Below, in pieces: positions 1 through 14,700 of a DNA stretch of 64,000 nt. The stretch covers positions 3,224,001 to 3,288,000 of the forward strand of contig NZ_JAFBCF010000001.1 of NCBI RefSeq assembly GCF_016907535.1, written 5' to 3'. Each line of letters begins with the position of its first letter. Position 1 is the first letter of the stretch. Source of the DNA: Microlunatus panaciterrae (GTDB lineage: Bacteria > Actinomycetota > Actinomycetes > Propionibacteriales > Propionibacteriaceae). The position numbers were made by a program, and so were the translations under genes. The notes under the pieces are model-generated. The model saw only the letters and a program-made list of their open reading frames with translations. It had not been told where the DNA came from and searched no databases.

Positions 1-2
1 TG

Positions 3-116
3 GGCGGCCGCTATGACGCACTGATCTGGCTGGAGGACACGCGGGCCCTGCAGCCGCTGCATCACGAGGCCAGACCGAGCGAACCCGAGCTGGAGACGGA
101 GCCCACCGGCTTCTGA
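3..116 (+). CDS. 3' end of an unidentified gene (partial)
   Basis: An open frame enters from the left edge and stops with TGA at 114-116. It gives 37 residues, starting GGRYDALIWLED and ending in a polar, Glu/Pro-rich tail (PSEPELETEPTGF). Nothing in this tail identifies a family. The gene ends 8 bp before the stop codon of the convergent SDR gene, so the frame is consistent with a real gene end. It could equally be chance, as no start or domain is visible. Confidence 0.45.
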   Translation, partial: GGRYDALIWLEDTRALQPLHHEARPSEPELETEPTGF

Positions 117-124
117 CGCGTGGG

Positions 125-1123
125 TCAGTTCCCGAGGCTCTGCACCTTGTCGATCAGGGCGTCCAGCCGTGCGTTGAGGCCGGCATCCACCACCTGGGCA
201 TCCGGGTGTTCGTCATGCCAGCCGACGATCTCGCGTACCCCCGTCGCATAGGGGATGGTCGCGCAGAACTCAGGAACCAGCGACTTGATCTTGCTGTTGT
301 CGAAGATCACCGAGTGGGCCTTGTCTCCCACGATGCCTGGGCCGATCTCCGGCAGCACCGCAGCCAACGTGTCGGAGGCGACGTGCACCAGCTGCGGCGT
401 CACGCCGAGGGCGGTGCCGTAGAGGCCGAAGATGTGGTTCCAGGTCAGCACCTCGTCGGAGGTGATGTGGAAGGAGTCGCCGATCGCCTGCGGGTGGCCC
501 AGCAGGCCGACGAAGCCGATCGCGAAGTCCTCGGTGTGCGTCATCGTCCACAGCGAGGTGCCGTCTCCGTGGACGACGACCGGCAACCCGCGCCGCATCC
601 GATCCACCACTGTCCAACCACCGGGGAGGGCCACCCGGCTGTGGTCGTACGTGCTGGACGGACGGACGATGGTGATCGGGAAGCCGTCGTCGCGGTAGGC
701 CTCCAGCAGGAGGTCCTCGCAGGCGATCTTGTCCCTGGAGTACTGCCAGTACGGGTTGCGCAGCGGGGTCGATTCCACGATGGGTAGCCGGGCAACCGGC
801 TTCTGGTACGCGGAGGCGCTGCTGATGAAGACGTACTGCGAGGTCCGGGAGGTGAACAGGTCGATGTCGGTGCGGACGTGGTCGGGGGTGAAGGCGATGA
901 AGTCGACGACGACGTCGAACTCGCGAGCGCCCAGCGCGCTGCGGACCGAGGCGGGATCCCGGATGTCGGCGGTCAGTACCTCGGCTCCCGCGGGCACCGG
1001 TCGGCTCGCCGTGGTGCCGCGGTTGAGCAGCGTCAACTGGTGCCCGGCGGCGATCGTCTGGGCCGAGCTGGCCGCGCTGATGGTGCCGGTGCCGCCGATG
1101 AAGAGGATCTTGAGTGGGCTCAT
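125..1123 (-). CDS. NAD(P)-dependent epimerase/dehydratase (extended SDR-like)
   Basis: This 332-residue protein is an extended or atypical short-chain dehydrogenase. The N-terminal Rossmann turn reads FIGGTGTIS (residues 8-16) in place of the strict GxxGxxG. DFIAF follows strand 4, an SSASAYQ segment (101-107) follows strand 5, and a YSRDK (Tyr128-Lys132) fits the YxxxK catalytic pair. The C-terminal half is the variable substrate-binding region, so the substrate cannot be named; a nucleotide-sugar epimerase-like or reductase role is likely. It is divergent from the SPW gene, with 128 bp between them. The first in-frame ATG is used. Family is confident, reaction is not. Confidence 0.85.
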   Translation of the reverse strand: MSPLKILFIGGTGTISAASSAQTIAAGHQLTLLNRGTTASRPVPAGAEVLTADIRDPASVRSALGAREFDVVVDFIAFTPDHVRTDIDLFTSRTSQYVFISSASAYQKPVARLPIVESTPLRNPYWQYSRDKIACEDLLLEAYRDDGFPITIVRPSSTYDHSRVALPGGWTVVDRMRRGLPVVVHGDGTSLWTMTHTEDFAIGFVGLLGHPQAIGDSFHITSDEVLTWNHIFGLYGTALGVTPQLVHVASDTLAAVLPEIGPGIVGDKAHSVIFDNSKIKSLVPEFCATIPYATGVREIVGWHDEHPDAQVVDAGLNARLDALIDKVQSLGN

Positions 1124-1251
1124 GACGTGACTCTATCGAGCGCAGCTGAACAGGCCTTCGGACCTCTTGTGCCGACACGAAACGGATCTACCGTGGTGAT
1201 ATGGCGATCCGCCAGAGGCGACGGATCTGAACTGAAAGGTGGTGGCTTGAG

Positions 1252-1611
1252 ATGCGCAAATGGACTCGCTGGCAGGACTGGGTGGCCCTCGCCGCTGGTC
1301 TGTACGCGCTGCTGTCTCCGATCTGGACACAGACCACAACCCGGGCGACCTGGTCGCTGATCGGGCTGGGGGCCGTGCTCGCGGTGACGGCACTGTGGTC
1401 GCTCGCTGCGCCCGGAGCGGTGGCGTCGGAGTGGATCCACGCGATCCTGGGCGTGCTGTTGATCATCGCGCCGTTCGTGCTCGGGTTCTCGGGTCTGATG
1501 GGAATGGCCATCACGGCTTGGGCCACGGGCGGCGTTGCCCTGATCGTCGGCGCCTTGGGGATCCCGGCCAGCAACCGGGTTCACCACGACCAGATGGTGG
1601 CGCACAGCTGA
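1252..1611 (+). CDS. SPW repeat family membrane protein
   Basis: A 119-residue, four-helix membrane protein. It has two SPW-type units: WQDWVALAAGLYALLSPIW near residues 7-25, and SEWIHAILGVLLIIAPFVLGF near 58-78. Each pairs an amphipathic W-x2-hydrophobic start with a conserved Gly and Pro. Such proteins are found widely in actinobacteria; their role is unknown. An AAAGGTGG ribosome-binding stretch lies upstream of the ATG. The protein ends in a short polar tail. It is followed by a strong hairpin shared with the convergent dioxygenase gene. Confidence 0.85.
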   Translation: MRKWTRWQDWVALAAGLYALLSPIWTQTTTRATWSLIGLGAVLAVTALWSLAAPGAVASEWIHAILGVLLIIAPFVLGFSGLMGMAITAWATGGVALIVGALGIPASNRVHHDQMVAHS

Positions 1612-1651
1612 CCTCACACCCTGATCAAGCTGTGTCGTCAGCGATGCATCT

Positions 1652-1680
1652 CCAGCGGCCCACCTGGCGTGGGCCGCTGG
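1652..1680. terminator. Bidirectional hairpin terminator between convergent genes
   Basis: A perfect 11-bp inverted repeat, CCAGCGGCCCA / TGGGCCGCTGG, is separated by a 7-nt loop. It sits between the SPW gene stop and the dioxygenase stop, where both strands need termination. There is no U tract, as is usual in high-G+C actinobacteria. Confidence 0.65.
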
Positions 1681-1693
1681 CAGGTCCGGCGGC

Positions 1694-2581
1694 TCAGCTC
1701 GGTGCTGTGGCCTCGTCGGCGTGCTCGGGCCGGCCGGCCAGCCAGTCCTGCAGGTCGGCCACCCGCTGCGGGTGGCGGCGACTGCGCGCCAGGAACCCCG
1801 CGCCGTGCTCCGGCATCGGATCCTGGTCGGTCGGTTGATAGCGCAGGTCGACACTCCAGCGGACATGGTCGGCGTTGTTCGGCGTCGAGCTGTGCACCAG
1901 CCGGTCGTTGAACAGGATCGCGGTGCCGGCCCGTACCGGCAGCGCCCGTTCCCGGCTCTTGCCGGCGGCCAGCCCCTCGACATCGACTGTCAGGAACCCG
2001 GTGCCGCTGTACTCCTCCTGGTGGAACGGCAGCACCTTCTGCTTCTGCGTCCTCGGCAGCACGTGCAGGCAGCCGTTCTCCAGTGTGGCGTCGACGAACG
2101 AGATCCAGACGGTGATGACGGGGTTGGAGTTGGCGTCCGGCCAGTAGGACTTGTCCTGGTGCCAGGGGACGGCTCCGGCGGCGATCCTGGGCACCTTGGG
2201 ACGGACGTTGTACACCGGGTTGGAGAAGATCTCCGGACCGATCAGGCTCTCGACCGCGTCCAGGATCTTCGGGTTGCTCATCAGCGTGTGGTAGCCGGCG
2301 ATCCGGTCCCGCCAGCTGCGGCCGAACTCGAGGAAGTGTTCCGGCGCCAGCCCCTCGAACAGCCGGGCCAGCCGGACCGGAAAGGGGGCATCGGTCAGCG
2401 GGTCGTCGATGAGGCCGGCCGCGACCAGCTCTGCGGCGATCCGGTCCACCTTCTCCGTCAACGCCCCCCGGACCGGTGCCATGTCCTGCTCCGTCAGGAG
2501 GTCCGGCAGCACCAGGTACCCCTCGGTGTCGTACTGCTCGACCTGGGCCGGCGACAGGTTGCCCTGGTTACCTGCCCGCAT
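1694..2581 (-). CDS. Phytanoyl-CoA dioxygenase (PhyH) family Fe(II)/2-oxoglutarate oxygenase
   Basis: The protein (295 residues from the chosen start) has the PhyH double-stranded beta-helix signature. An HQD iron-binding motif (His141, Asp143) lies within VPWHQDKSYWPD, the distal iron His is His230 (NDRLVHSSTPNN), and Arg247 in SVDLRYQP is placed to bind the 2-oxoglutarate carboxylate. The substrate is unknown. Family members hydroxylate lipids, osmolytes such as ectoine, or natural products. The frame runs 20 codons further upstream, but that extension is basic and unlike the family, so I start at MRAGNQGN. An AraC regulator is transcribed divergently and probably controls this gene; the two genes read as one catabolic or modification unit. 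Confidence 0.88.
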   Translation of the reverse strand: MRAGNQGNLSPAQVEQYDTEGYLVLPDLLTEQDMAPVRGALTEKVDRIAAELVAAGLIDDPLTDAPFPVRLARLFEGLAPEHFLEFGRSWRDRIAGYHTLMSNPKILDAVESLIGPEIFSNPVYNVRPKVPRIAAGAVPWHQDKSYWPDANSNPVITVWISFVDATLENGCLHVLPRTQKQKVLPFHQEEYSGTGFLTVDVEGLAAGKSRERALPVRAGTAILFNDRLVHSSTPNNADHVRWSVDLRYQPTDQDPMPEHGAGFLARSRRHPQRVADLQDWLAGRPEHADEATAPS

Positions 2582-2714
2582 CCGGGTGTTCCCCTCGACA
2601 CTGTCCCGGCGTGCTGGAATCTCGCGTGCAATGGTGCGCATGGGGCAACGCTAGAGGGCGATTCGCCTGTCTGTCGTGGTTCTGTCGGGTCATTTGTGGT
2701 TACCATCGATCACG

Positions 2715-3497
2715 ATGCAGGTTGCAGCAGATCATCGACTGGCACTCCGGCTGGCCCGCCCGCCGGAGGTGAGGGGCATCGGCATCGGCGTCCATGGCAC
2801 GCGTCATCGGCACGAGCGGTGGGTCCTGCCCGAGCTGCACTCGCTGCATCTGTACGGCTATGACGGTGTGGTGACATTGGACGGGGTGCTCCACCGGATC
2901 CGTCCCGGTCACGCCAGTCTGGTGCCGCCCGGAGCGGTGATGGAGTTTCAGTTCCGGGGCCCGTCCGAGCATCTTTTCGCTCACCTGCTCATGCCGCGGA
3001 GCGGCCCGACCCGCGACGTCCCCGTGATGCAGGACCTGGGGGTCGACGGTCCCGTCCTGCAGGAGCGGCTGCGGTCGGCCAGGCACCTGCTCGAACCGGA
3101 TCATCTCGCCGCGGAGGTGTGGTCGGTGCTGTGGAGTCTGGCCACCCTCGAGCAGCGCCGCGGGAGCCAGGCCGACGGCGAGCATCCGGCGCTCCGGGCG
3201 GCGGTGCGCCATGTCGAGGGCCATCTGGCGGATCGCCTGACGGTGCCGGAGATCGCTGCCGCCACCGGCTATTCGGCCAGTCACCTCAACCGGCTGTTCG
3301 GCTCAGCGATGGGCTGCAGCGTCACCGCCTACGTGCGCCGGCGCCGGATGGCCCGGGCCCGGCATCTGCTGCAGGACACGACCCAGTCGATCTCCTCGGT
3401 CGCGGCGTCCGTCGGCATCGCCGACCTGCAGGCGTTCAACAAGGCGTGCCGGCGCGAGTTCGGGGCGCCTCCGCGCGCACTCCGCTCCGGCTCGTGA
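2715..3497 (+). CDS. AraC family transcriptional regulator
   Basis: A 260-residue regulator. The first half is a cupin-like sensory domain (LHSLHLYGYDGVVTLDG, then RPGHASLVPPGAVMEF). The C-terminal third (from about residue 165) contains two AraC helix-turn-helix motifs: LTVPEIAAATGYSASHLNRLF, and SISSVAASVGIADLQAFNKAC followed by FGAPPRALR. The longer frame begins 13 codons earlier; the ATG before QVAADHRL gives a standard N-terminus. It is divergent from the PhyH dioxygenase across a short shared promoter region of about 130 bp, so it is probably that gene's local regulator, and the inducer is probably the dioxygenase substrate or product (inference). Confidence 0.88.
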   Translation: MQVAADHRLALRLARPPEVRGIGIGVHGTRHRHERWVLPELHSLHLYGYDGVVTLDGVLHRIRPGHASLVPPGAVMEFQFRGPSEHLFAHLLMPRSGPTRDVPVMQDLGVDGPVLQERLRSARHLLEPDHLAAEVWSVLWSLATLEQRRGSQADGEHPALRAAVRHVEGHLADRLTVPEIAAATGYSASHLNRLFGSAMGCSVTAYVRRRRMARARHLLQDTTQSISSVAASVGIADLQAFNKACRREFGAPPRALRSGS

Positions 3498-3583
3498 CAG
3501 GAACCGACCACTCGTCGTCGGCCGGGGGCGGACTCGGCGTGGGCCGCGGCCACCCGTCTGCCGACGACTGGTCGTTTCCTTGC
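3498..3583. repeat. Dispersed palindromic element, copy A
   Basis: An imperfect inverted repeat of about 86 bp. The left arm starts CAGGAACCGACCACTCGTCG and the right arm ends CGACTGGTCGTTTCCTTG. It lies between the convergent AraC and flavoprotein genes. The same outer arms recur near 31.6, 32.9 and 57.0 kb. Confidence 0.75.
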
Positions 3584-3593
3584 AGGGCGAGAC

Positions 3594-4859
3594 TCAGCCG
3601 GCCGCTCTCACGTCTGCGGCCGGGAACGGTGGCCGCTGGTCGAGCCTGACCGACATCCGGCCAGCCGCCCGCCAGGCGCGGGCGACCAGGTCACGGTCCT
3701 GCTCGGTGATCAGGTTGCCCATCACCCGTAGCGCCACGGTCATCAGCAGCTGCGAGCGCATGCCGACCGGCCCGAACACCGGCAGCAGGTGCGGCACGGT
3801 GATCAGGCCGGCGAGCCGCCGTGCGATCGAGAACGACTCGCCATAGTGCCGGCGCAGCAGGGCCGGCCAGGCGAGCTGAAGGTCATCCTCGGCCCGCATC
3901 AGGTCGACGACCACCCGACCCGTCTCCAGCCCGTAGTCGATGCCCTCACCGTTCAAGGGATTGACGCAGGCGGCCGCGTCACCAACCAGAGCCCAGTTCG
4001 GCCCGGCCACACCGGAGACGGCACCACCCATCGGCAGCAGGGCGGAGGTCGGCAGCCGCAGTTCGTCGCCGAGCTCCCATTCGTCGCGTCGCTGACGGGC
4101 GTAGAACTCCATCAGCGGACGCAGCTGCACCTTTGCCGGCCGTTTCGCGGTGGCCAACGTCCCGACCCCGAGGTTCACCTCCCCGTCGGACAGCGGGAAG
4201 ATCCAGCCGTAGCCGGACAGGATCTCGCCCCGCTCGCCGCGCAGTTCCAGGTGGGAGGAGATCCACGGATCGTCGCTGCGACCGGACTTCACATAGCAGC
4301 GGCCGGCCACTCCGTAGGCGGTGTCGCGGTGCCACTCCCGGCCCAGCACCCGGCCGAGTGGGGAACGCACACCGTCGGCGACGATCAGCCGGTTGCAGTG
4401 CACCCGGTGCGTCGCCCCGTCGGCCAGGGTGAACAGGACCTCGGTGACCCGGCCTGCCTCACGGACGGCGTCCACCGCACGCGCGCCGTCGAGGGCGGCG
4501 GCACCGGAGTCGAGCGCCACCTGACGGATCCGTGCATCGAGCTCCGTGCGGGGCACCGCGGAGCCGTGGTCTGGTAGCGATCCACCGGGCCAGGGCAGGT
4601 GCAGCACCTGGCCGAAGCCGTGTGCGCGAAGTCCCCGGTTGGTGCCCTGCCGGCGGATCCAGTCGCCCATACCGAGGCGGTCGAGCTCGGCGATCGCCCG
4701 TGGCGTAAGTCCGTCACCGCAGGTCTTGTCTCGGGGGAAGGTCGCGGCGTCGGCGAGGACCACCTCCAACCCGGCCCGAGCGGCCCAGGCGGCCGCGGAC
4801 GACCCGGCCGGACCGGCTCCGACGACAAGAACGTCGGTATCGGTCGGCAGTTCGGTCAC
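3594..4859 (-). CDS. Geranylgeranyl reductase family FAD-dependent oxidoreductase
   Basis: A 421-residue flavoprotein of the geranylgeranyl reductase/PHBH fold. The N-terminal dinucleotide motif VLVVGAGPAGSSAA is followed by FPRDKTCGDGLTPRA, the family's K-x-CGDGL-P signature. A second FAD motif, ALVGDAAACVNPLNGEGI, lies near two-thirds of the length. These enzymes reduce polyprenyl chains (quinones, membrane lipids) or act in secondary metabolism. The frame is open to an ATG at 4922, but the family normally begins a few residues before the Rossmann strand, so a GTG at 4859 (VTELPTDTDVL) is preferred; neither has a clear ribosome-binding site. It is divergent from the lanthipeptide-like operon, and nothing else suggests a link. 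Confidence 0.87.
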   Translation of the reverse strand: MTELPTDTDVLVVGAGPAGSSAAAWAARAGLEVVLADAATFPRDKTCGDGLTPRAIAELDRLGMGDWIRRQGTNRGLRAHGFGQVLHLPWPGGSLPDHGSAVPRTELDARIRQVALDSGAAALDGARAVDAVREAGRVTEVLFTLADGATHRVHCNRLIVADGVRSPLGRVLGREWHRDTAYGVAGRCYVKSGRSDDPWISSHLELRGERGEILSGYGWIFPLSDGEVNLGVGTLATAKRPAKVQLRPLMEFYARQRRDEWELGDELRLPTSALLPMGGAVSGVAGPNWALVGDAAACVNPLNGEGIDYGLETGRVVVDLMRAEDDLQLAWPALLRRHYGESFSIARRLAGLITVPHLLPVFGPVGMRSQLLMTVALRVMGNLITEQDRDLVARAWRAAGRMSVRLDQRPPFPAADVRAAG

Positions 4860-4969
4860 CCCTGGATTCTCGCATTGGCGACCTGCAGTTCCGAAATCGC
4901 TGCGCACCTGTGCCCTGGCCATGGACGCGGTGCGCCGAGCCCGCTTGGAAGCCCCCGATGTATCACTTT

Positions 4970-5015
4970 CCCGATCGACGGACTCTTTCTTGTCGGGGTC
5001 CCGATCGGCGGGACT
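4970..5015 (+). promoter_or_regulatory. Tandem direct repeat upstream of the lanthipeptide-like operon
   Basis: Two near-identical boxes, CCCGATCGACGGACT (4970-4984) and CCCGATCGGCGGGACT (5000-5015), lie 30 bp apart, about three helical turns. They end 18 bp before the first start codon of the four-gene operon. They look like a tandem operator, but no regulator gene is adjacent. Each contains the palindrome CGATCG. Confidence 0.4.
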
Positions 5016-5032: not shown

Positions 5033-6472
5033 ATGTCTGCTCAGTCAGAACATGAGGCGAGGGCGGCCATCCGCCCGGTCAAGGAGCGGGTCGAGGACGA
5101 GCTCATCGCCCGGGAGGGCGTGGTGGGTGTCGACATCGGCGAGAAGATCTCCGAGGGGAAGCCGACCGGCGAGCTCAGCATCGTGGTCTATGTGGAGAAG
5201 AAGAAGCCGGACTCCAAGCTGACGAAGGCGCAGGCGATCCCGAAGGAGATCAACGGGGTCAAGACCGACGTCCAGGAGCTCGTGATCGAGCTGCAGCAGG
5301 CCGTACGGTTCCAGGAGGCGGTGAGCCAGGTCGACACCAGTGCCTACCCGACCCTCGTCGGCGGCATCGGCATCGGACCCGCCCGGACGGTGTTCCTGTC
5401 GCCCCCGGACGTACCGTCGGCCGGCAACTACGTCTTCGTCGGCACCCTCGGCGCCATCGTCGAGGATCGCAGCAGCGGCGCCCGGATGGCGCTGACCAAC
5501 TTCCACGTGGCCTGCGTCAACAACACCTGGACGGTCGGGGACCGGATGGTGCAGCCGTCCCGAGTCGACGGTGGCTCTCCGACGGGTTTCTTCGGCAGCC
5601 TCACCCGTGCACAGCTGACCGAGAACACCGACGGTGCAGTGATCACGATCGACGCCGGACGCCCGTCGGAGCCCTCCGTCACCGGTATCGGCACCGTGGT
5701 CGGCCAGGGGGTCGCCAGCGTCGGCATGGCCGTACAGAAGCGGGGACGGACCACCGAACACACCTTCGGCACGGTGCAGTCGACCGACTTCACGGTCTCC
5801 ATCGACTACGGCACCGGAGTCGGCACCCGGACGCTGCGGCACCAGATCCGGATCGACACCGACACCACCAAGTCGCCCCGCTTCTCCGACCACGGTGACT
5901 CCGGCTCGTCGGTGATGGACATGAACCGCAACGTGGTCGGGCTGCTGTTCGCGGGTTCCAACGACGGCTCGATGACGTTCGCCAACCCGATCGCGGCAGC
6001 CCTGGACGAGCTGGATGTCAACCTCGTCATCGACCGTCCGACCCTGGTCACCAGGCCGGTGATCTGCGACTTCGTGGTCACCAAGCCGGCCATCTGCGAG
6101 AGCTTCAGCAGGACAGTGATCTGCAACATCGTCACCAGGCCTGCGGTGTGCAACATCGTCACCAAACCCGCGGTGTGCGACCTGGTGACCAGACCCGCGG
6201 TGTGCGGGGTCAGCCGGACCGTGATCTGCAACGATCTCGTCACCCGGTCGGCCTCGTGTCTCGTCACCCGGGTCAGCTGTCCGACCCGTGCCGTCTGCGG
6301 TCCAGGGGACTTCGAACCGGGCGGTCCGGTCGAGCGCCCCCGGATGGGTCAGTTCGGTGGCTATCTGGACCAGTACGGGACCAGCGGGGAGGAGCTCGAA
6401 GACACCTTCGTCGCCGGCTACCTTGCCGCGCTGGAGGCGCTGGCCGCCGAGGAGAAGACCGGGGAGCGCTGA
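5033..6472 (+). CDS. Trypsin-like serine protease fused to a Ser/Thr-Cys repeat tail; candidate substrate of the adjacent lanthionine enzymes
   Basis: A 479-residue protein starting at an ATG preceded by GGAGGAAGGA. Residues 1-90 are a charged N-terminal domain (GVVGVDIGEK, VVYVEKKKPDS) like that of Nal1-type bacterial proteases. Residues ~100-335 are a trypsin fold with an apparently intact triad: His158 (LTNFHVAC), Asp200 (NTDGAVI) and Ser290 (DHGDSGSS). Residues 339-422 hold ten short repeats of the type VTRPAVC, each with Ser or Thr four or five residues before a Cys. An acidic 57-residue tail follows. Only one other Cys (161) is present. No signal peptide or membrane helix is seen. The next three genes, tightly coupled, encode a kinase, a HopA1-type lyase and a LanC cyclase, so I infer the repeats become (methyl)lanthionine rings and the protease domain serves as leader, scaffold or active partner. 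A plain disulfide-rich repeat is the alternative. Confidence 0.85.
   Translation: MSAQSEHEARAAIRPVKERVEDELIAREGVVGVDIGEKISEGKPTGELSIVVYVEKKKPDSKLTKAQAIPKEINGVKTDVQELVIELQQAVRFQEAVSQVDTSAYPTLVGGIGIGPARTVFLSPPDVPSAGNYVFVGTLGAIVEDRSSGARMALTNFHVACVNNTWTVGDRMVQPSRVDGGSPTGFFGSLTRAQLTENTDGAVITIDAGRPSEPSVTGIGTVVGQGVASVGMAVQKRGRTTEHTFGTVQSTDFTVSIDYGTGVGTRTLRHQIRIDTDTTKSPRFSDHGDSGSSVMDMNRNVVGLLFAGSNDGSMTFANPIAAALDELDVNLVIDRPTLVTRPVICDFVVTKPAICESFSRTVICNIVTRPAVCNIVTKPAVCDLVTRPAVCGVSRTVICNDLVTRSASCLVTRVSCPTRAVCGPGDFEPGGPVERPRMGQFGGYLDQYGTSGEELEDTFVAGYLAALEALAAEEKTGER
6047..6298 (+). repeat. Ten-unit Ser/Thr...Cys coding repeat (candidate lanthionine core)
   Basis: Within the protease gene, residues 339-422 repeat with a period of about nine residues. 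Cys lie at 345, 355, 364, 373, 382, 391, 399, 409, 416 and 422. Each is preceded by Thr or Ser five residues earlier in the first eight units (T340, T350, S359, T368, T377, T386, S394, T404) and four residues earlier in the last two (T412, T418). The commonest unit is VTRPAVCNI or VTKPAVCDL; two units are SRTVIC. DNA units in the middle are near-identical, which suggests recent duplication. Confidence 0.85.
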
Positions 6473-6475
6473 GCG

Positions 6476-7447
6476 ATGCTGACAGCTCCGGAGCTTGTGG
6501 CACACGCCGCCCAGGCGCAGCTGGTCACGAGCCGCGACGTGCTGATCGGTGCCGTCACGATCAGCGACGAGTCCCGGAGCAATCACGTGCAGGTGATCTC
6601 CGTCCACGACCAGCCGATCGTCTACGTCAAGCAGCGCGGTGCCGCCTCGCTGCTTGACGGCGACGATGCCATCGGTCACGAACGAGCCGCCCTCACCTCC
6701 CTGGCTGATCTTGGTCTGGTTCCGCAGATGATCATGGTTGCCGACCAGCGGACCCTCTGGACCACTGCATTGGCAGGAACCGCGCTGACCCGACGCCAGG
6801 GCCCGGTCACCGACCTGGTTGCGGTGTGCGCCGCTTGGGGCGTCGCGCTGGCAACCCTGCACCAGTGGCCGACAACGGCCGTTCCCTCACTGCTCGCGCC
6901 ACGGCCGTGGGCACTTCAACTGGACACGCTGCCGCCCTCCATGGCCGGTGCCGAGACGGCCGAGCTGCGCGCGGTGCTGCGGGCCAGGGACGAGCCCGAG
7001 CTGCGGCAGGCGGCGGAGACCGCAGACCGTGACTGGACGCACGACCGGTGGATCCACGGAGACCTGAGCGCCGCCAACGTTCTGGTCCGCGATCATGATC
7101 ATCAGCCGCAGCTGACCTTCATCGACTTCGAGGCTGCCGGGCTGGGCGAGCCAGGCTGGGACGTGGCGACGGTGATCGACAGCCTGGAGTGGATGGCCCC
7201 GGTCTGGCAGGCGCCGAGCGAGCCCCTGGTTGAGCACTTCCTGACCGGCTACCGCACGGCCGGGGGTTCTGGACGCGCGACGTCGGCGCTGCAGGCCATG
7301 CGTGCGTTGATGACGGCCTGGCAGCTGGCCGCCCGTTCGCTGCAGGAGCCCACCCCCGGCCTGGGCGACGACGTGGCCGCCTTGCTCGACCGGGCGCGGC
7401 GCTTCGCCGCCGAGGATCGGCGGATGCACTGCCAGGCGGTGGCCTGA
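6476..7447 (+). CDS. APH/choline-kinase-fold protein kinase, candidate lanthipeptide Ser/Thr kinase (LanK-like)
   Basis: A 323-residue kinase-fold protein starting 3 bp after the substrate gene stops. The catalytic set is complete: Lys52 (VYVKQRG), a candidate helix-C Glu69 (GHERAAL), the Brenner loop H194-G-D196 with Asn201 (WIHGDLSAANVLV), and Asp217 in IDFE. The aminoglycoside phosphotransferase family is the nearest recognisable family, but aminoglycoside resistance does not fit the context. In class V lanthipeptide loci a free kinase of this fold phosphorylates Ser/Thr of the precursor, and the next gene here encodes a HopA1-type lyase. I infer that it phosphorylates the Thr/Ser of the repeat tail. 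The gene overlaps the lyase start as TGATG. Confidence 0.83.
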   Translation: MLTAPELVAHAAQAQLVTSRDVLIGAVTISDESRSNHVQVISVHDQPIVYVKQRGAASLLDGDDAIGHERAALTSLADLGLVPQMIMVADQRTLWTTALAGTALTRRQGPVTDLVAVCAAWGVALATLHQWPTTAVPSLLAPRPWALQLDTLPPSMAGAETAELRAVLRARDEPELRQAAETADRDWTHDRWIHGDLSAANVLVRDHDHQPQLTFIDFEAAGLGEPGWDVATVIDSLEWMAPVWQAPSEPLVEHFLTGYRTAGGSGRATSALQAMRALMTAWQLAARSLQEPTPGLGDDVAALLDRARRFAAEDRRMHCQAVA

Positions 7448-8379
7448 TGCCGCACTGGGCACCGGAGCCTGCGGCAGACCTGCACCGGGCGGCCGAGCTC
7501 GGCTGGCCGGACTCGGGTGGTCAGGACGAGCTGACCCAACGTCTGTACCACCAATGGTACGCAGCCCCGGACCCGGACGTCGGACCCGTGGACGTGGATG
7601 AGCTGGGACCGCCGCTGGCCGGTGTGCTGCGCCAGGCTCATGCCGGCAGCAGCCGATGGTTGGAGGCCACGGTGCTGCGGACGGGGGCATCCGGCGTGCT
7701 GGTGGTCGGCCGGCCGGGTGAGCCGGCGCGGGCCGTGGTGCGCGGTGACTACGCCCATCCCGCCGGCTCGCAGCGGTTGGGGATGACGCCGGTCGTCGGC
7801 GAGCGGGTCAGCGTCCGGGACCGCCGCGACGCGCCGCCCACGGAGGGCTGGTGGCGTACCTGGGGGGCCGGCTGGAACTTGATCACGCCGCCCGGCGGGC
7901 TGACCCGGATCTACCTGGCCCCGAGACCGGACCGGTTGCCGGCGCTGCTGCAGCTGCTCACCCGCCTCCTCCTGTCGACCAATGACCCCTGGATGATCAA
8001 GGTCGCGGCCGATCCGGTGGCGCTGCGGCGACCCGACGCCACCGTCGTCTACCTGCCGGTACCGCTGGACCAACTGCGCGACAGCGCACTGCTCGGACAG
8101 CTGTGCAGCGAAGCCGGCGACATGCTGAGACGCCACTCACCGCCATTGACCCTGCGCGTCGCCGCAGGGATCGCCGCAGCAGAGGACCCGGGCGACGGCC
8201 GCAGCTTCGGCGAGCTGTGCTGCTCTCTCGTTGCGGCCGGCATCGCCGGGTCGCAGGCGCGCGACGACGTGCCTGCTGCGGTGGCCGGCCGGTTCCGCGC
8301 CGCCGGTCTCGACCCGGCAGAGCCGTACCTGCGACCCCGACCCGCCGTGCCGCGCCGAACCGTCCCGGAGGAGCGATGA
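7447..8379 (+). CDS. HopA1-domain protein, candidate phospho-Ser/Thr lyase (LanY-like)
   Basis: A 310-residue protein whose pattern fits the HopA1 effector family. It has a RLYHQWY segment (32-38), a WWRTWGAGW segment (135-143), RIYLAP (154-159), then PWMIKVAADP with Lys185, and RRPDATVVYLP (194-204). In class V lanthipeptide biosynthesis a HopA1-domain protein removes phosphate from phospho-Ser/Thr to give dehydroalanine and dehydrobutyrine; in type III effectors the same fold is a phosphothreonine-lyase-like enzyme. Its place between a kinase and a LanC gene fits that role. The gene overlaps both neighbours (TGATG upstream, ATGA downstream), implying coupled translation. Specificity for the repeat tail is inferred. 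Confidence 0.8.
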   Translation: MPHWAPEPAADLHRAAELGWPDSGGQDELTQRLYHQWYAAPDPDVGPVDVDELGPPLAGVLRQAHAGSSRWLEATVLRTGASGVLVVGRPGEPARAVVRGDYAHPAGSQRLGMTPVVGERVSVRDRRDAPPTEGWWRTWGAGWNLITPPGGLTRIYLAPRPDRLPALLQLLTRLLLSTNDPWMIKVAADPVALRRPDATVVYLPVPLDQLRDSALLGQLCSEAGDMLRRHSPPLTLRVAAGIAAAEDPGDGRSFGELCCSLVAAGIAGSQARDDVPAAVAGRFRAAGLDPAEPYLRPRPAVPRRTVPEER

Positions 8380-9722
8380 GAGTGGAGACCCCCGGTGACG
8401 TGTTCACCGCCAGCCGAGCGGTCGCCGATCGGCGTTCAGCGCCCGACGACCCGAGCAGGTCGACAGAACCCCGGCCGGGTGGGCCTGTGCAAGAGCAGCA
8501 GTCGCCCGCTCTGGACCTGCAACGGCTGGTCGAGCGGTGCGCCGACACGCTGGCGGGGGTGGCCTTCCGGGACGGCGAACGGGCGGGCTGGCTGAGCTGG
8601 GAGCTGACCGGCGACGGCAGGCCGACGAGGATGCGCGCCGGCAACCCGACGCTGTACGACGGCGACGCCGGCACCGCCTGGGTCTGTGCCGAGCTGGGGG
8701 TCCTCCTCGGTCGCGACGACCTGGTCGAGCTGGCCCAGCGGGTGATGGCGGACACCTCAACCCGAGCGGCCCAGCTGCCTGCGGGTCTGCTGACCGGACG
8801 GGCCGGGGTCGGCCTGGCTCAGAAGCGCATTGAGGTGCTGACCGGCAGCCGGACCGCCGAGTCGCTCGGAGTCGACCTCGGTTGGGACGGCACCCCGCCG
8901 GGCTCGGCCGACCTCACTTCGGGCGTCGCAGGGCTGCTGGTCGGGGACCTGACCGCTGCACAGGCCGAGACGGCTCTCCTGCTGCTGGAGCGCAGTGCCC
9001 ATGGGGGCCCGGGCGGCTACTGCTGGCCGGAGCCGGAGGCCCCGGATCCGTTGGCCGGGCGTCCACTCTGCGGGCTGGCGCACGGGAACTCCGGCGTCGT
9101 CTGGGCGCTCGCTGAGACCGCTGCGCGGTACGAGGCCCTGGCTCCCCGGGCCGGCGAGCTGATCAGGGAGGCGCTGCGCTGGGAGCGGTCCTGGTTCGAT
9201 CCGGTGCGTGGACGCTGGCCCGACCTCCGCACCGTCCCGCCGTCCCACCCGGCGCTGTGGTGCCATGGGGCCGCGGGCATCGGGGCGGTCCGACTGCGGC
9301 TGCTCGCGCTGTCCGGCCAGGGACTGGAGCTCGGACTTCCGCTCGAGGAGCTGACCGCCGAGGCCGAGCTTGCTGTCCAGGCCTGCGGTCAGGTGCTGGC
9401 CGACTCCGTGCAGCTGGCCCAGGCCCAGGATCCAGCAGCGCTGGCCGGCGGCCTGACCCTGTGCCACGGCCTGGGTGGTCCGCTCGACGTCCTGCTGTCG
9501 GCACACCGGCTCTGGGAGGTCCCCGAGCACCTGGCGGCGGCCCGGTCGATGGCAGTCGCCGTGGCCGACCTACTGGGCCAGAATCCTCTCGACTGGCCTT
9601 CCGGGCTGTCGGCCACGGGCGGCAGCAGCTTGTTCCTCGGCCTGGGTGGAGCAGCACTGGTGCTGGCCCGCGCCGCCTACCCCGACCGGATCGGATCGCC
9701 GGCGCTGCTCGGCATTCGATGA
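8376..9722 (+). CDS. LanC-like zinc-dependent lanthionine cyclase
   Basis: A 448-residue protein with the alpha/alpha-barrel LanC pattern. Successive motifs are LYDGDAGTAW (93-102), LAHGNSG (234-240), WCHGAAGIG (295-303), LCHGLGG (362-368) and a final GLSATGGSSLFLGLGG. Putative zinc ligands are Cys296, Cys363 and His364, and His236 matches the catalytic His of NisC; all are present, so it should be active. LanC enzymes add Cys thiols to dehydrated Ser/Thr. The first 45 residues are a Pro/Ser-rich extension not needed for the fold. The start is the ATG overlapping the lyase stop (ATGA). It is the last gene of the coupled operon. Use of a true zinc LanC beside a HopA1-type lyase is unusual. Confidence 0.88.
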   Translation: MRVETPGDVFTASRAVADRRSAPDDPSRSTEPRPGGPVQEQQSPALDLQRLVERCADTLAGVAFRDGERAGWLSWELTGDGRPTRMRAGNPTLYDGDAGTAWVCAELGVLLGRDDLVELAQRVMADTSTRAAQLPAGLLTGRAGVGLAQKRIEVLTGSRTAESLGVDLGWDGTPPGSADLTSGVAGLLVGDLTAAQAETALLLLERSAHGGPGGYCWPEPEAPDPLAGRPLCGLAHGNSGVVWALAETAARYEALAPRAGELIREALRWERSWFDPVRGRWPDLRTVPPSHPALWCHGAAGIGAVRLRLLALSGQGLELGLPLEELTAEAELAVQACGQVLADSVQLAQAQDPAALAGGLTLCHGLGGPLDVLLSAHRLWEVPEHLAAARSMAVAVADLLGQNPLDWPSGLSATGGSSLFLGLGGAALVLARAAYPDRIGSPALLGIR

Positions 9723-9832: not shown

Positions 9833-10495
9833 ATGACGACGACCGGCCACACGTCCACAAGGGCCGGTCGACGGCCCGGGCATGAGGGTGGCATCTTCGC
9901 TGACTGGGTGCTGCTCGTCACGATCGGAGAGTTCCTCGGCTTCCTGGCTCCTGCCCTGGTCGGCACGCTGGCTGCTGGCACCAGCCCCTATCGGTTTCTC
10001 TTCGCCATGGTCGCTGCCGGACTGGTGGAGGGGGCGGTGCTGGGCACGGCCCAGTCCGTGGTGCTGCATCGCCGGTGGCCGGCGCTGCGGCGTCGGGACT
10101 GGATCGCGGCAACGACGAGTGCCGCCGGCTTCGCCTGGCTGATCGGCATGCTGCCGAGCACCTTCGACCAGGTCTGGCTGGACTGGCCCACGGCGCTGAC
10201 CGTGGCCGTCGCGGCCGTCCTCGGCTGTCTGATGCTGTTCTCGTTCGGCTTTCTGCAGTGGCGCGTACTGCGTCATCACCTGGCCCGGGCCTGGCGCTGG
10301 ATCCCTGCCGTCGCGATCGGCTGGGCGATCGGCCTCACCGTCCTCCTGGCCGTCGTGCTTCCCCTCTGGCAGCCGGGGCAGTCCGGCATCGTGGTGGCTG
10401 CCATCGGCGCGATCGGCGGCTTGGTGATGGCGGCGTCGATGGCGTTGCTCACCGGGTGGATGCTGAACTGGATGATCAGACACGAGCCTCACTAG
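9833..10495 (+). CDS. Six-helix membrane protein of unknown function
   Basis: A 220-residue protein with about six hydrophobic helices (near residues 24-50, 52-75, 92-112, 122-143, 155-180 and 184-208) and short charged loops. The N-terminus is polar. An AAGGGA box precedes the ATG. It starts 110 bp after the LanC gene on the same strand, so it may be read through from that operon. It has no ABC-transporter or protease motif, so there is no direct evidence that it exports the modified product. I do not recognise the family. Confidence 0.75.
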   Translation: MTTTGHTSTRAGRRPGHEGGIFADWVLLVTIGEFLGFLAPALVGTLAAGTSPYRFLFAMVAAGLVEGAVLGTAQSVVLHRRWPALRRRDWIAATTSAAGFAWLIGMLPSTFDQVWLDWPTALTVAVAAVLGCLMLFSFGFLQWRVLRHHLARAWRWIPAVAIGWAIGLTVLLAVVLPLWQPGQSGIVVAAIGAIGGLVMAASMALLTGWMLNWMIRHEPH

Positions 10496-10539
10496 AGCTT
10501 CACGCATGACCGACCCCGTCGATGCGCTTGGATGGGTCG

Positions 10540-11649
10540 ATGATCGACATCGCTGTGGTCGGGCTCGGGTTCGGTGCAGACTTCGTCCCGCTCTACCAGG
10601 CGCATCCCGATGTTGGGCGGGTGGGCATCGTCGACCCGGACCCGGGCCGGCTGGCCGCCGTTGCAAAACGGTGCCAGGTCGCCGACAGCTACCGCAGCCT
10701 GGAGGACCTGCTGGACAGCAGGGGGTGGGACGCGGTGCACCTGCTCACCCCGGTGGCGCTGCACGCCGACCAGGTGATCAAGGTGCTCGAGTCGGGCCGG
10801 CACTGCGCCTGTGCGGTACCGATGGCCACCAGCCTGGCTGACATCGATCGGATCATCGCGGTCCAGGGCCGGACCGGGAGGACCTACATGATGATGGAGA
10901 CGGCCGTGTGCTCGCGAGAGTTCTTCTACGCCCGGTCGCTGCTCGAGCGGGGACAGCTCGGCCAGCTCAGCTTCTTCCGTGGCGAGCACCTGCAGAACCT
11001 CGACGGCTACCCGCCGTACTGGCTGGGTTTTCCGCCGATGCACTACGTCACCCACGCCTTGTCACCGGCGCTGGCCCTTGCCGACGCCAGGGCCGAGTCG
11101 GTGCGTTGTCTCGGGTCCGGGCTGCTCACACCGCAGCGGCGAGGACTCTCAGGCAATACGTTCGGCACCGAGACGGCGCTCTTCACGCTGCGTCGTCGCT
11201 CACCGGCGTCCCCCGGCGCGGCCGAGGAGGCTCTGGCGGCCAACATCACCGTCTCCTTCTTCCAGCTCGGCCGCAGCTACCTGGAGGGGTTCTCGGTGTA
11301 CGGCGACGCCGGGGCGCTGGAGTGGCCGCAGCTCGAGGGCGGCCCGATGAAGCAGTTCCGCATGTCAGGCCGGACGTCGGGGCAGCGGGGACGACCGGTC
11401 GACGTGATCGACCTGCATCCGCCGGCCGTGACCGGCACCTTGCCGGCGCCCCTGCAGCCGTTCACCGTCTCGGGTGGTCACGGTGGGTCGCACCCGCATC
11501 TGGTGCACGAGTTCGTCCGCAGCCTGGTCGAAGGCCGCCCGCCGGTCGTCGACCACCGGGCGGCCGCGCGGTTCACGGCGCCCGGCATCTGCGCCCACTC
11601 GTCGGCCATGTCCGCCGGTGCCGAGGTCGCGATACCCGACTACGGCTGA
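10540..11649 (+). CDS. Gfo/Idh/MocA family protein lacking the usual EKP lysine
   Basis: A 369-residue Gfo/Idh/MocA protein. The Rossmann start is IAVVGLGFGADFVP, and a VHLLTPVALHADQ segment follows strand 4. The family's EKP motif, whose Lys contacts substrate and cofactor, is replaced by ACAVPMATS near residue 93, so it may bind a sugar derivative without normal dehydrogenase chemistry, or use a different residue. The C-terminal domain has the usual SGGHGGSHPHLVHEF loop. The ATG at 10540 is chosen because translation then begins directly at the Rossmann strand; an ATG six codons upstream is possible. Confidence 0.85.
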   Translation: MIDIAVVGLGFGADFVPLYQAHPDVGRVGIVDPDPGRLAAVAKRCQVADSYRSLEDLLDSRGWDAVHLLTPVALHADQVIKVLESGRHCACAVPMATSLADIDRIIAVQGRTGRTYMMMETAVCSREFFYARSLLERGQLGQLSFFRGEHLQNLDGYPPYWLGFPPMHYVTHALSPALALADARAESVRCLGSGLLTPQRRGLSGNTFGTETALFTLRRRSPASPGAAEEALAANITVSFFQLGRSYLEGFSVYGDAGALEWPQLEGGPMKQFRMSGRTSGQRGRPVDVIDLHPPAVTGTLPAPLQPFTVSGGHGGSHPHLVHEFVRSLVEGRPPVVDHRAAARFTAPGICAHSSAMSAGAEVAIPDYG

Positions 11650-11744
11650 TCCGCCGGCACGGACAGCAGGTCTGTCAGTGCCCGTTCGTAGACTCGAGAG
11701 GCAGTCGCAGCCAGCGACGAGCCCGATCACCAGAAAGTCCACCC

Positions 11745-14700
11745 ATGGCGCCGACGCTCGACCTCGAGACCATCGAAGACCTGGTCGACGTCGGCGCGTT
11801 CGAACGCGGCCGGGAATATGAGCGGCAGGGCAGGGTGCAGTCCTATCGATGGGCTCGGGCGGACACCGTGCTCGAGGGTCACGTCAGCGGGAGCGGCGGC
11901 CAGGCGTACCGGGTGAATGTGATGTTCTCCGACGCCGACGGGCAAACAGTGCCCACGGTCGGAGTCTGCTCCTGCCCGGTGCACGTCAACTGCAAGCACG
12001 TCGTCGCCGTACTGCTGGCGCTCCGACGCGACCTGGAGGGCGGTGGCGGTGGGGACGGCAGGCCTCTGTGGGAGCAGCTGCTCTCAGGACTCGTACCGCG
12101 CGACCACAGGCCGGCGCCGGCCCCGCTGGCCCTTCAGCTGGAGCTGCAACCGACCGCGGACCGATCCAGACTGGCGCTGCACGGCCGGCCACTGGCGATG
12201 GGGTCGAAGGGAAGGTGGATCCGCGGCCGGGTGAGCTGGAGCAGTGTCACCTACGCGCACAGCTACCAGGAGTGGAACCCCGACCATCACCGCATCCTCA
12301 GTGCGATCAACGCGCTGCACGCCACCACCCGCCACCAGTACGGCGCCGACCCGTGGCTCCGGCTGGACCTGCTTCCGATGCGGACCCTCTGGTCACTGCT
12401 GAGGGAGGCCGTCGAGGTCGGGCTGACGCTGCTGCACACTGACGACCGAACTCCGGTCCGGCTGAGCGACACCACCGCCTCGCTGGTGCTCGACCTGCAC
12501 CGCGGCGACGACGAGCTGACCGTGCAGCCAATGACCCGGCTGGGCGAGGAGCCACTCGACGCAGGGGCCTTCGGCTTCCTGGGCGAGCCGGGACAGGCGA
12601 TCGCCTACTGGTCGCCGACGCTGGTGGCGGTCGACAACCGGCTGCAGGACCGACGGTTCTCGCTGGCCCTACTGGACCGCCCGCTGCCGCGGGAGCTGCG
12701 TGGACTGACCGAGCACAAGGGCGGTATCAGCATCCCGGCCGCCGACGCCGGCCGCTTCCTGGACGACTTCTTCCCGGTCCTGCGGTCCAGGATGGAGACG
12801 GTCTCGACGGATCGGTCGTTCGAACCCCCCAGCTTGCCGAGGCCGATGCTGGTCCTCGCGGCGAAGGTGCTGCCGGAGCACCGGCTCGAGGTCGAGTGGT
12901 GCTGGCTCTACCGGCGCAGCGAGGATCCGCCCGGCGTCGGAACGCGACGGGGCCTCCATCCGGTCGTGGTTCAGGGCATCGGGTTGCTGCATCCGATCGG
13001 GACGCACGCTCCGGGCGGGGGCCCAGGAGCCGGCCGTGATGCCGGGGCCGAGACGGCCCTGCTGGAGCGCCTGGACCTCGGAAGGTTCCCCTTCCTGTTC
13101 GAGCAGTCGCCGTCCGGGCCCCGGCTGGCCGAGCGCGTACTGGTGGAGGGGAGCGACACGGTCGAGCTCGTCGGACGGCTGCTGCCCGAGCTGACCGGCC
13201 ACCCCGACGTGCTGGTCGACATCGAGGGCCAGCAGGTCAGCTATCGACAGGCCACCTCCGCGCCGACGATCGAGCTGGCCACCACCGACATCGCCGGCGA
13301 CCGGGACTGGTTCGGGCTGGCCGTGACGATCCGGATCGAGGGCGAGGAGGTCCCGTTCCATGAGGTCTTTCGGGCACTGGCCACCGGCGAGGACACCATG
13401 ATCCTGCCCAGTGGCACCTACTTCTCGCTCGACCATCCCGAGCTGCGCCAGCTGCTGGCGTTGATCGAGGAGGCCAACGCCCTCTCCGACGCCGCCGAAG
13501 GGGAGGTGCGGATCAGCAGGTTCCAGTCGGCGCTGTGGGACGAGCTCGCGACCCTGGCCGTCGTCACTGCGCAGGCCCAGGCGTGGCAGCAGTCGGTCGC
13601 CGGTCTGCGGGAGGGCGCGGAGCTGACCGAGGTACCGCAACCGGTGGGCCTCCAGGCGACGCTGCGGGACTACCAGCGCGAGGGTTTCTGGTGGCTGGCC
13701 TTCCTCTACCAGCATCGGCTGGGTGGCGTGCTGGCCGACGACATGGGCCTGGGCAAGACGCTGCAGACGCTGGCCCTGATCTGCCACGTCCGGGAGCAGG
13801 CCGGTGCATCGGCACGGGACCGACCGCCGTTCCTGGTGGTCGCGCCCACCAGCGTGGTGCCCAACTGGGCCCACGAGTGCCGACGGTTCGCCCCGGGGCT
13901 GCGGGTGGCGGTGATCAGCGAGACCACCGGTCGCGGCCGCTACACGTTGGCCGACGTCGCCGCCGACGCCGACATCGTGGTCACCTCCTATGCGCTGTTC
14001 CGGATCGACTTCGAGGCCTACGACGCCCTCGGCTGGGACGGCCTGGTGCTGGACGAGGCGCAGTTCGTGAAGAACCACCAGTCACGGGCCTACGCCTGCG
14101 TACGGCGACTGTCGACCCCGTTCAAGCTGGCGATCACCGGCACTCCGTTGGAGAACAACCTGATGGAGCTGTGGTCGCTCTTCTCGATCACCGCTCCCGG
14201 TCTGTTCGGCACCCCGGCACAGTTCGGGGACGTCTATCGCCGACCGATCGAGAAGGACGGTGACGTCGAGCTGCTGGCCCGGCTGCGGCGCCGGATCCGG
14301 CCGCTGATGCTGCGCCGGACCAAGGAGCAGGTGGCCTCAGAGCTGCCGCCCAAGCAGGAGCAGGTGGTGGAGCTCGAACTGTTGCCTAGGCATCGTCGGG
14401 TCTACCAGACCCATCTGCAGCGGGAGCGCAAGAAGGTGCTCGGTCTGTTGGATGACCTTGACGAGAACAGGTTCGAGATCTTCCGGTCCCTGACCGCGCT
14501 GCGCCAGCTCAGCCTGGACGCGAGCCTCTACGACGAGAAGTACGCCGACGTCCCGTCGACCAAGCTCGAGGCGTTGCGCGAGCTGCTGGAGGACATTGTG
14601 GCGGAGGGACACCGGGTGTTGATCTTCAGCCAGTTCACCCGGTTCCTGTCCCGGGTACGTGACCTGCTCGACAGCGTCGGGATCGGCTACGCCTATCTGG

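Follow-up and report, generated by a model that had tools for sequence, protein, structure and literature searches.

In the literature cited here, described lanthionine systems modify short precursor peptides. Class Vb (LanK + LanY + LanC; SmoA/SmoC) relies on a stand-alone PF01636 kinase, a PF17914 lyase and a LanC cyclase (PMC12291118, PMC12328550). The same trio of separate enzymes is encoded by an operon of Microlunatus panaciterrae, in which the first gene codes for a serine protease extended by a tail of Ser/Thr...Cys repeats. The operon lies in a stretch of 64,000 nucleotides (positions 3,224,001 to 3,288,000 of NZ_JAFBCF010000001.1; the genome is a single 4.07 Mb contig), denoted here as the window. 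Judging from sequence data, it is highly probable that the protease tail is the substrate of kinase, lyase and LanC, and receives lanthionine rings.

Four coupled genes and a repeat tail

The operon (5033-9722) consists of four intact genes, identified by open reading frames (ORFs) and Pfam matches, in the order protease-tail, kinase, HopA1 lyase and LanC. The spacing is 3 bp, a TGATG overlap and an ATGA overlap, respectively. A preliminary description of this DNA had reported four tightly coupled genes at this place, coding for a trypsin-like protease with a Ser/Thr...Cys tail, and for a kinase of the APH fold, a HopA1-type lyase and a LanC of the zinc type. All these assignments hold: the protease matches Pfam Trypsin (2.7e-4) and, weakly, NAL1_N (0.006), ten Cys units are found in its tail, and the other products match the expected families (Table 1). 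The enzymes had also been presented as lanthipeptide synthetase activities residing in separate proteins. The trio does match LanK, LanY and LanC, but the arrangement is not new, having been published as class Vb. Single-polypeptide lyase-kinase-cyclases of classes III and IV have no counterpart in the window, where three separate genes are found and the corresponding NCBIfam models score far under cut-off; no NCBIfam model exceeded its own cut-off for any of the four proteins.

Most protease blocks in the AlphaFold2 (AF2) model of the first product have a predicted local distance difference test score (pLDDT) above 85, and the best PDB matches of the model are rice NAL1 structures (7y77, E 4.5e-19). 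Both the NAL1 fold and the H-D-S triad of NAL1-like serine proteases are found in the protein, by AF2 and alignment. The tail is predicted to be disordered between the folded protease and a C-terminal helix (residues 341-450 are under pLDDT 50, with block means of 25-40). Its ten units are TRPVIC, TKPAIC, SRTVIC, TRPAVC, TKPAVC, TRPAVC, SRTVIC, TRSASC, TRVSC and TRAVC. In shuffles keeping Cys fixed, a Ser/Thr 3-6 residues upstream of all ten Cys was obtained in 7/5000 cases, and an [ST][RK] pair for all ten in 0/5000.

A Ser/Thr to Cys spacing of 3-6 corresponds to the usual lanthionine ring sizes, and is found in all the related tails described below. Nineteen tails, 17 attached to NAL1-type proteases and two to S8 subtilases, include 203 Cys, each of which has its own Ser/Thr (located after the previous Cys) 3-6 residues upstream. 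Whole-tail shuffles yielded on average 74 such Cys (maximum 94), and Cys-fixed shuffles 115 (maximum 135; 2000 shuffles each). For these counts tails were cut from 12 residues before the first Cys to the last Cys, the start of the two S8 tails being chosen by eye. In the 12 tails of group A (see below) the figure is 95/95, against a maximum of 63 in 5000 shuffles. In the five Serinicoccus sequences Cys (7/7), the following Arg/Lys (7/7) and Ser/Thr (8/9) are kept, while other array positions are unchanged in 23/49 cases. The [ST][RK] pair is found in 136 of the 203 units, and the Ser/Thr spacing rule is kept in the 67 units lacking the pair at that distance. In loci L128-L130 a second array is mostly of CPTLAC type, its units retaining Ser/Thr and Cys but not the basic residue. 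The tails of these loci (19, 25 and 20 Cys) feature two arrays split by a second AGYAxGYAAA-type segment, and resemble a duplicated array-plus-helix module.

The two S8 subtilase genes likewise precede genes for a kinase, a HopA1 lyase and a LanC; the encoded tails are CPSxxxxC/CPTLAC arrays. All their 27 Cys have an own Ser/Thr (Cys-fixed shuffles, mean 19.6, maximum 25), and 4/27 units an [ST][RK] pair. The occurrence of a like tail in S8 operons supports the notion that the tail is the substrate. It has been considered that each ring might expose Thr-Arg/Lys as a P2-P1 pair, the array being a tethered inhibitor that acts on the protease itself or on a partner, much as graspetides, also ringed, inhibit serine proteases. 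The large share of units carrying the basic pair fits such a role, which is nevertheless unlikely, as CPTLAC and most CPSxxxxC units are devoid of Arg/Lys.

Residues H194, G195, D196, N201 and D217 of the kinase are invariant in 12 aligned sequences. In LanC, C296, C363, H364, H236 and H297 are invariant in 12/12 aligned homologs, and C296, C363 and H364 are presumably the zinc ligands. The lyase model (pLDDT 87) has its best PDB match in LxmY, involved in lexapeptide formation (9dk3_B, E 1.1e-16). Lyase residues R154, K185, R195 and Y202 are invariant in 12, and then in 15 sequences including S8-linked ones, and align by spacing to R187, K219, R229 and Y236 of CaoY, which have been discussed as catalytic; R187A and K219A changes impaired elimination (PMC9486802). 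Catalytic residues are thus conserved in lyase, LanC and protease. LanK would phosphorylate the Ser/Thr opening each unit, LanY would remove the phosphate leaving dehydroalanine or dehydrobutyrine (Dha/Dhb), and LanC would add the Cys located 3-6 residues downstream, to form one small (methyl)lanthionine ring per repeat, some ten being possible on the window protein. Protein families, conserved residues, operon linkage and co-loss all point to these steps.

Table 1. Position of the operon genes, of elements of the protease-tail gene, and of the S8 subtilase carriers
Feature	Position	Strand	Remarks
Protease-tail gene	5033..6472	+	479 aa; NAL1-like domain at the N-terminus, then protease of trypsin fold, repeats and C-terminal helix
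Catalytic triad codons	His158 5504-5506, Asp200 5630-5632, Ser290 5900-5902	+	H/D/S invariant in 45/45 aligned protease domains
Ten-unit [ST][RK]x(2-3)C array (residues 340-422)	6050..6298	+	10/10 units; predicted lanthionine/methyllanthionine sites
C-terminal helix, residues 452-476	6386..6460	+	FVAGYLAALEAL; WAGYxAAL in most relatives; block pLDDT 68, 85, 69
APH-fold Ser/Thr kinase, LanK-like	6476..7447	+	PF01636 2e-17
HopA1-type phospho-Ser/Thr lyase, LanY-like	7447..8379	+	PF17914 4.4e-18
Zinc LanC cyclase	8376..9722	+	PF05147 LANC_like 1.5e-29; ATGA overlap with lyase gene
S8 subtilase with array	L131:7887-9650 (G682)		Pfam 8.6e-53; 15 Cys
S8 subtilase with array	L132:2671-4659 (G665)		Pfam 2e-32; 12 Cys

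Relatives with and without the tail

A scan of one genome per species with two short protease patterns led to 46 protease loci, which fall into three groups, in addition to L010 (G024). In these loci genes were called by GC-frame or as stop-to-stop frames, and start sites are approximate. Group A includes 10/46 loci, plus L010 and the window; the Ser/Thr...Cys tail is followed downstream by kinase, HopA1 and LanC, always in this order. In group B (19/46) the tail is absent or short, or the protease is read in two frames (L056, L057), and no kinase, HopA1 or LanC matches are found nearby. Group C (17/46) is made of loci all titled Cellulomonas. Cys-free PFTEP-repeat tails are found in 13 of them, and the contig ends before any repeat in 4; a distant kinase-like gene adjoins the protease in 7/17, and HopA1 or LanC are nearby in 0/17. 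Kinase, HopA1 and LanC are thus found downstream of the protease in 10/10 tailed loci, and HopA1 or LanC near 0/36 untailed proteases, the contig ending at or just after the protease in 7 of the 36 (L036, L037, L038, L042, L044, L045, L054).

The association is found also at the level of genomes and of phylogeny. Among 96 relatives, the protease was detected at E<=1e-40 in exactly two genomes, the same two in which HopA1 has a strong match; weak partial HopA1 matches (2e-4) were found in two others. In a tree of 45 protease domains, from which L054 (cut), L056 and L057 (two frames) and the window-genome paralogue L011 were excluded, as they were from the triad count, the tailless and enzyme-less L017-L020 branch from within the tailed clade (support 99/99 for the set of 10 rows, 100/99 for that of 16). 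The tail label requires three changes, at least two of which are forced by well-supported branches, and it follows that tail and enzyme state changed at least twice, together. A genome-wide HopA1 search covering 10 genomes found none in those of L017, L018, L019 and L057 (the L020 genome lies outside this search), and a distant match (2.3e-15) elsewhere in that of L027. The protease plausibly has a use of its own, because relatives keep it without tail and enzymes.

HopA1-led searches were carried out on overlapping sets of 96 relatives, 394 genomes of the class, 391 of the order, 396 of the phylum and 215 of one genus. They added L010 and five full operons (L128, L129, L130, L152, L164), bringing the NAL1-type tailed operons to 17, five of which are from the single genus Serinicoccus, besides the two with an S8 subtilase. 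Scoring in the class, order and phylum sets was limited to six candidates per genome. In the class set 20/27 non-own HopA1 places were examined, the remaining 7 being at E 1.1e-12 or weaker; in the order set 13/16 places were new, the rest corresponding to the window, G024 and G458; the 9 non-own places of the phylum set comprise 5 new ones, 3 seen earlier, and G211 C34, which was left out. No HopA1 was found in L101 and L108 by the profile used here.

The 34 HopA1 loci include different arrangements. In L100 and L103 a kinase gene and a gene for fused HopA1-LanC are preceded by small Cys-rich ORFs, and L134 has a similar fusion; by our profiles, nine loci have only kinase and HopA1, and twelve HopA1 alone. 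The more distant HopA1 genes look like members of other ribosomally synthesized and post-translationally modified peptide (RiPP) systems. The only strong HopA1 relative without a protease carrier is L089 (G438), where neither kinase nor NAL1-type protease was found. In our frame reading its HopA1 has Glu in place of the catalytic Lys, and the zinc Cys residues are missing from its LanC; the locus, still located beside the cassette described below, is likely a degenerate remnant.

It could be argued that these are ordinary lanthipeptide clusters, in which a small precursor had been overlooked. This hypothesis was rejected for 13/17 operons, as the 459 ORFs of 20-120 amino acids located outside the operons, within 3 kb, contain no precursor-like family in common (L022, L024, L053 and L164 were left out). 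Of the 21 similar ORF pairs found between loci, 17 lie over S8/sigma-side genes and 4 in other flanks, and none is precursor-like. The absence of a small precursor nearby, noticed in the preliminary description, is borne out for the operons analyzed, and no competitor to the tail was found. The co-occurrence of the four families, which had been proposed as a check, is observed in all tailed loci of the scan, but the trio is not protease-specific. Proteases lacking the repeats, which had been indicated as evidence to the contrary if found in homologous operons, do exist, but 0/36 of their loci (7 of them cut by a contig end) have HopA1 or LanC nearby; the two operons missing the NAL1-type protease carry the tailed S8 enzyme.

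The tail could in principle be a Cys-rich metal-binding or disulfide segment, the three enzymes acting on an unlinked substrate. Cys-rich repeats can indeed bind metals or form disulfides, and the protease is found in some genomes in which the enzymes do not accompany it. This is however very improbable, given that no Cys is devoid of a Ser/Thr of its own at a distance suited to a ring, that changes of tail and enzymes coincide in the tree, that a similar tail was recruited by S8 proteases, and that the 13 operons searched have no precursor-like small ORF in common.

Several loci feature a cassette made of an S8 subtilase, an extracytoplasmic function (ECF) sigma factor, a 167-amino acid CarboxypepD_reg-like protein and, if the stretch analyzed extends far enough, a TPR-CHAT protein. 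The cassette is divergent and lies beside the operon. It adjoins L010, L021-L024, L053, L128, L129, L152 and L089, including the five Serinicoccus loci, and part of its S8 gene is found in L015 at the contig end. No cassette match is found nearby in L012, L013, L014, L016 and L130 (L164 is outside this comparison). In the window genome the cassette is located at a separate place (L160, G000:C1, about 2.849-2.854 Mb). The operon of Arthrobacter sp. HY1533 (L014:1466-6252) adjoins contractile-injection genes of the opposite strand, matching Pfam Pvc16_N, gp19 tail tube and tail sheath. Genes surrounding the operon in the window have no obvious link to it: Pfam matches correspond upstream (1-5000) to an epimerase, a PhyH dioxygenase, an AraC regulator and an FAD oxidoreductase, and downstream (9833-15059) to a GFO/IDH oxidoreductase and a SWIM/SNF2 helicase, next to a small membrane-like protein recognized by eye.

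The protease domain is found in other contexts. A second, tailless NAL1-like protease of 334 amino acids is encoded in the window genome (L011:4873-5877, about 2.045 Mb), and is 38% identical over the matched protease stretch. In a Streptomyces canus plasmid (L060:3887-5767) a distant relative (28%) is part of a protein annotated as DNA/RNA non-specific endonuclease, and has another C-terminal partner. A plasmid collection contains 12 records with protease-domain relatives, none spanning 80% of the query, and one record with HopA1, as a partial match. ORFs of about 85-90 amino acids coding only for a NAL1_N-like domain are present in L013 (5962-6228), L128 (7238-7522), and just 3' of the protease gene in L129 and L130; found in or beside the operon, they possibly specify an oligomer partner or an inhibitor.

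The G-Y-x-x-A residues of the C-terminal helix are invariant in 12 aligned relatives. In Cellulomonas (L036-L052, e.g. L040:7965-9761) the long PFTEPFTEP tail ends, where not cut, in an FWAGYxAA-like segment. The idea that the helix is a kinase dock was dropped, as the proteins of L047, L048, L049 and, in divergent form, L039 still terminate in a helix-like segment, without a kinase match in these genomes; the lack of the helix motif in S8-type tails also speaks against such a role. The L040 kinase-like protein, used as query, matched 0/4 of these genomes, and 2 of the 7 searched (its own and that of L044). The catalytic motif of the Cellulomonas kinase-like neighbors looks degenerate: HGDxxxxN is not kept, and HGD is present in 5/7 of our gene calls. 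As to the possibility that the PFTEP tails belong to graspetides, no ATP-grasp match to Pfam was found among 10 neighbor proteins searched. The Cellulomonas protease loci adjoin rplA (Pfam); we take their other neighbors to be ribosomal and transcription genes.

Weighing the proposed ringed tail

Some data weigh against a ringed tail. The presence of the three enzymes is not enough to predict a protease carrier, because separate kinase, HopA1 and LanC genes are found in the more distant L136 and L138, where no array was found. Conservation of the lyase Arg (R195) is weak evidence, because the CaoY R229Q variant still dehydrated its substrate (PMC9486802). In Serinicoccus the ratio of nonsynonymous to synonymous substitutions (dN/dS) is higher in the array (0.26) than in the protease domain (0.12). 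The 19 tails are mutually related, so that shuffle tests overstate independence, the S8 pair being the main independent case, and AF2 is uninformative on modified tails. Finally, all 18 tails counted contain more Ser/Thr than Cys (17 versus 10 in the window), and part of the dehydro residues may remain outside rings, or the ring partners may be different ones.

The latter figures would also fit a tail that is phosphorylated or dehydrated, the end product being open Dha/Dhb, adducts, or ladder-like inter-repeat crosslinks rather than one ring per repeat. Glutathione adducts were obtained in E. coli upon dehydration of CaoA by CaoK and CaoY (PMC9486802). The invariant zinc ligands of LanC in the 12/12 operons aligned speak against this outcome, which is unlikely. 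The claim of the preliminary description, that the product would be a large, enzymatically competent protein bearing rings, is supported in part: strongly as to the tail being the substrate of the enzymes, by spacing, linkage, co-loss and S8 tails, whereas the rings, and their retention on the mature protease, are predictions. No earlier description was found in our searches of the open literature.

The fate of the tail is less clear-cut. With the same chemistry, the protease may be a built-in leader protease, which recruits the synthetase and then cuts itself, so that the rings are secreted as a lanthipeptide, either strung together or one per peptide. A protease is the carrier in both folds, the NAL1-type triad is intact, and a Gly/Pro-rich linker is located C-terminal to the array in the window protein and several relatives; known lanthipeptides are normally cut from precursors (PMC10885120). 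This course of events is possible but the less probable one, since tailless relatives keep the protease, which has to have its own use, and in 17/17 NAL1-type proteins the tail terminates, by sequence, in a helix-like segment past the array. Because relatives losing tail and enzymes keep the protease, we lean slightly toward a ringed tail that stays attached to the working enzyme, and stiffens, protects or targets it. Taken together, the picture tentatively put forward, to which we assign not quite an even chance, is that of active trypsin- or subtilisin-fold proteases with a permanent stapled tail of 6-25 lanthionine rings, made by dedicated class V-type enzymes, and in some lineages wired to the ECF sigma/CHAT/S8 cassette.

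Should these tails carry rings, the targets of class V enzymes would include folded enzymes some 440-660 residues long, and a group occurring in several actinobacterial families would have escaped searches restricted to short precursors. Lanthionine chemistry would be, beyond peptide natural products, a protein-engineering device for enzymes, and provide a genetically encoded route to thioether-stapled segments on proteins. Questions raised are whether the tail of a folded protein can be stapled by a lanthionine synthetase, and of what use rings on its tail are to a protease.

Comparison with known systems

NARROW LEAF 1 (NAL1) proteases provide the best fold matches of the window protease, Pfam NAL1_N and Nal1_C matches being under the curated cut-off. 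Window-type proteases are set apart from NAL1 by the Ser/Thr...Cys tail and the linked lanthionine enzymes; tails of plant NAL1 are outside this comparison. Trypsin-like domains with variable partners, as well as caspase-like and S8 peptidases, are known from the NucA-trypsin/peptidase-effector conflict systems (Kaur et al. 2020, PMC7159879). The plasmid-borne relative fused to an endonuclease-annotated protein recalls these systems, and in gene content the cassette is similar to conflict systems based on peptidases (PMC7159879, PMC8195603). The terms 'lanthi' and 'HopA1' have 0 occurrences in the main texts of the two papers.

Enzymes fused to their own core peptide are found in borosins, where the fused enzyme does the modifying. 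Borosins and window-type proteins are alike in having a catalytic domain and a core, modified or predicted to be so, in one protein; here separate enzymes would modify, and the fused enzyme is the protease. Class Va lanthipeptides and thioamitides (cacaoidin, lexapeptide, thioviridamide) also feature a kinase and a HopA1 dehydratase with the same CaoY residues, and LxmY is the closest solved structure. Class Va systems differ in having separate precursor peptides and, according to PMC12291118, LanX and a Cys decarboxylase in place of LanC.

Among the literature matches listed, mostly from the open literature and not covering the primary class Vb paper, none describes a protease-borne lanthionine array. 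Tailed proteases would have been missed by one class V survey, because only ORFs shorter than 110 residues were taken (PMC9486802). LanK, LanY with the CaoY residues, and LanC with zinc ligands are all found in the window operon, and what sets it apart from class Vb is the lack of a short leader-core precursor: the class Vb substrate, in the available descriptions, is a short leader-core peptide, while the candidate substrate in the window is a C-terminal array on a folded protease. The trio is therefore a known one, and the substrate is, as far as our searches go, the new part.

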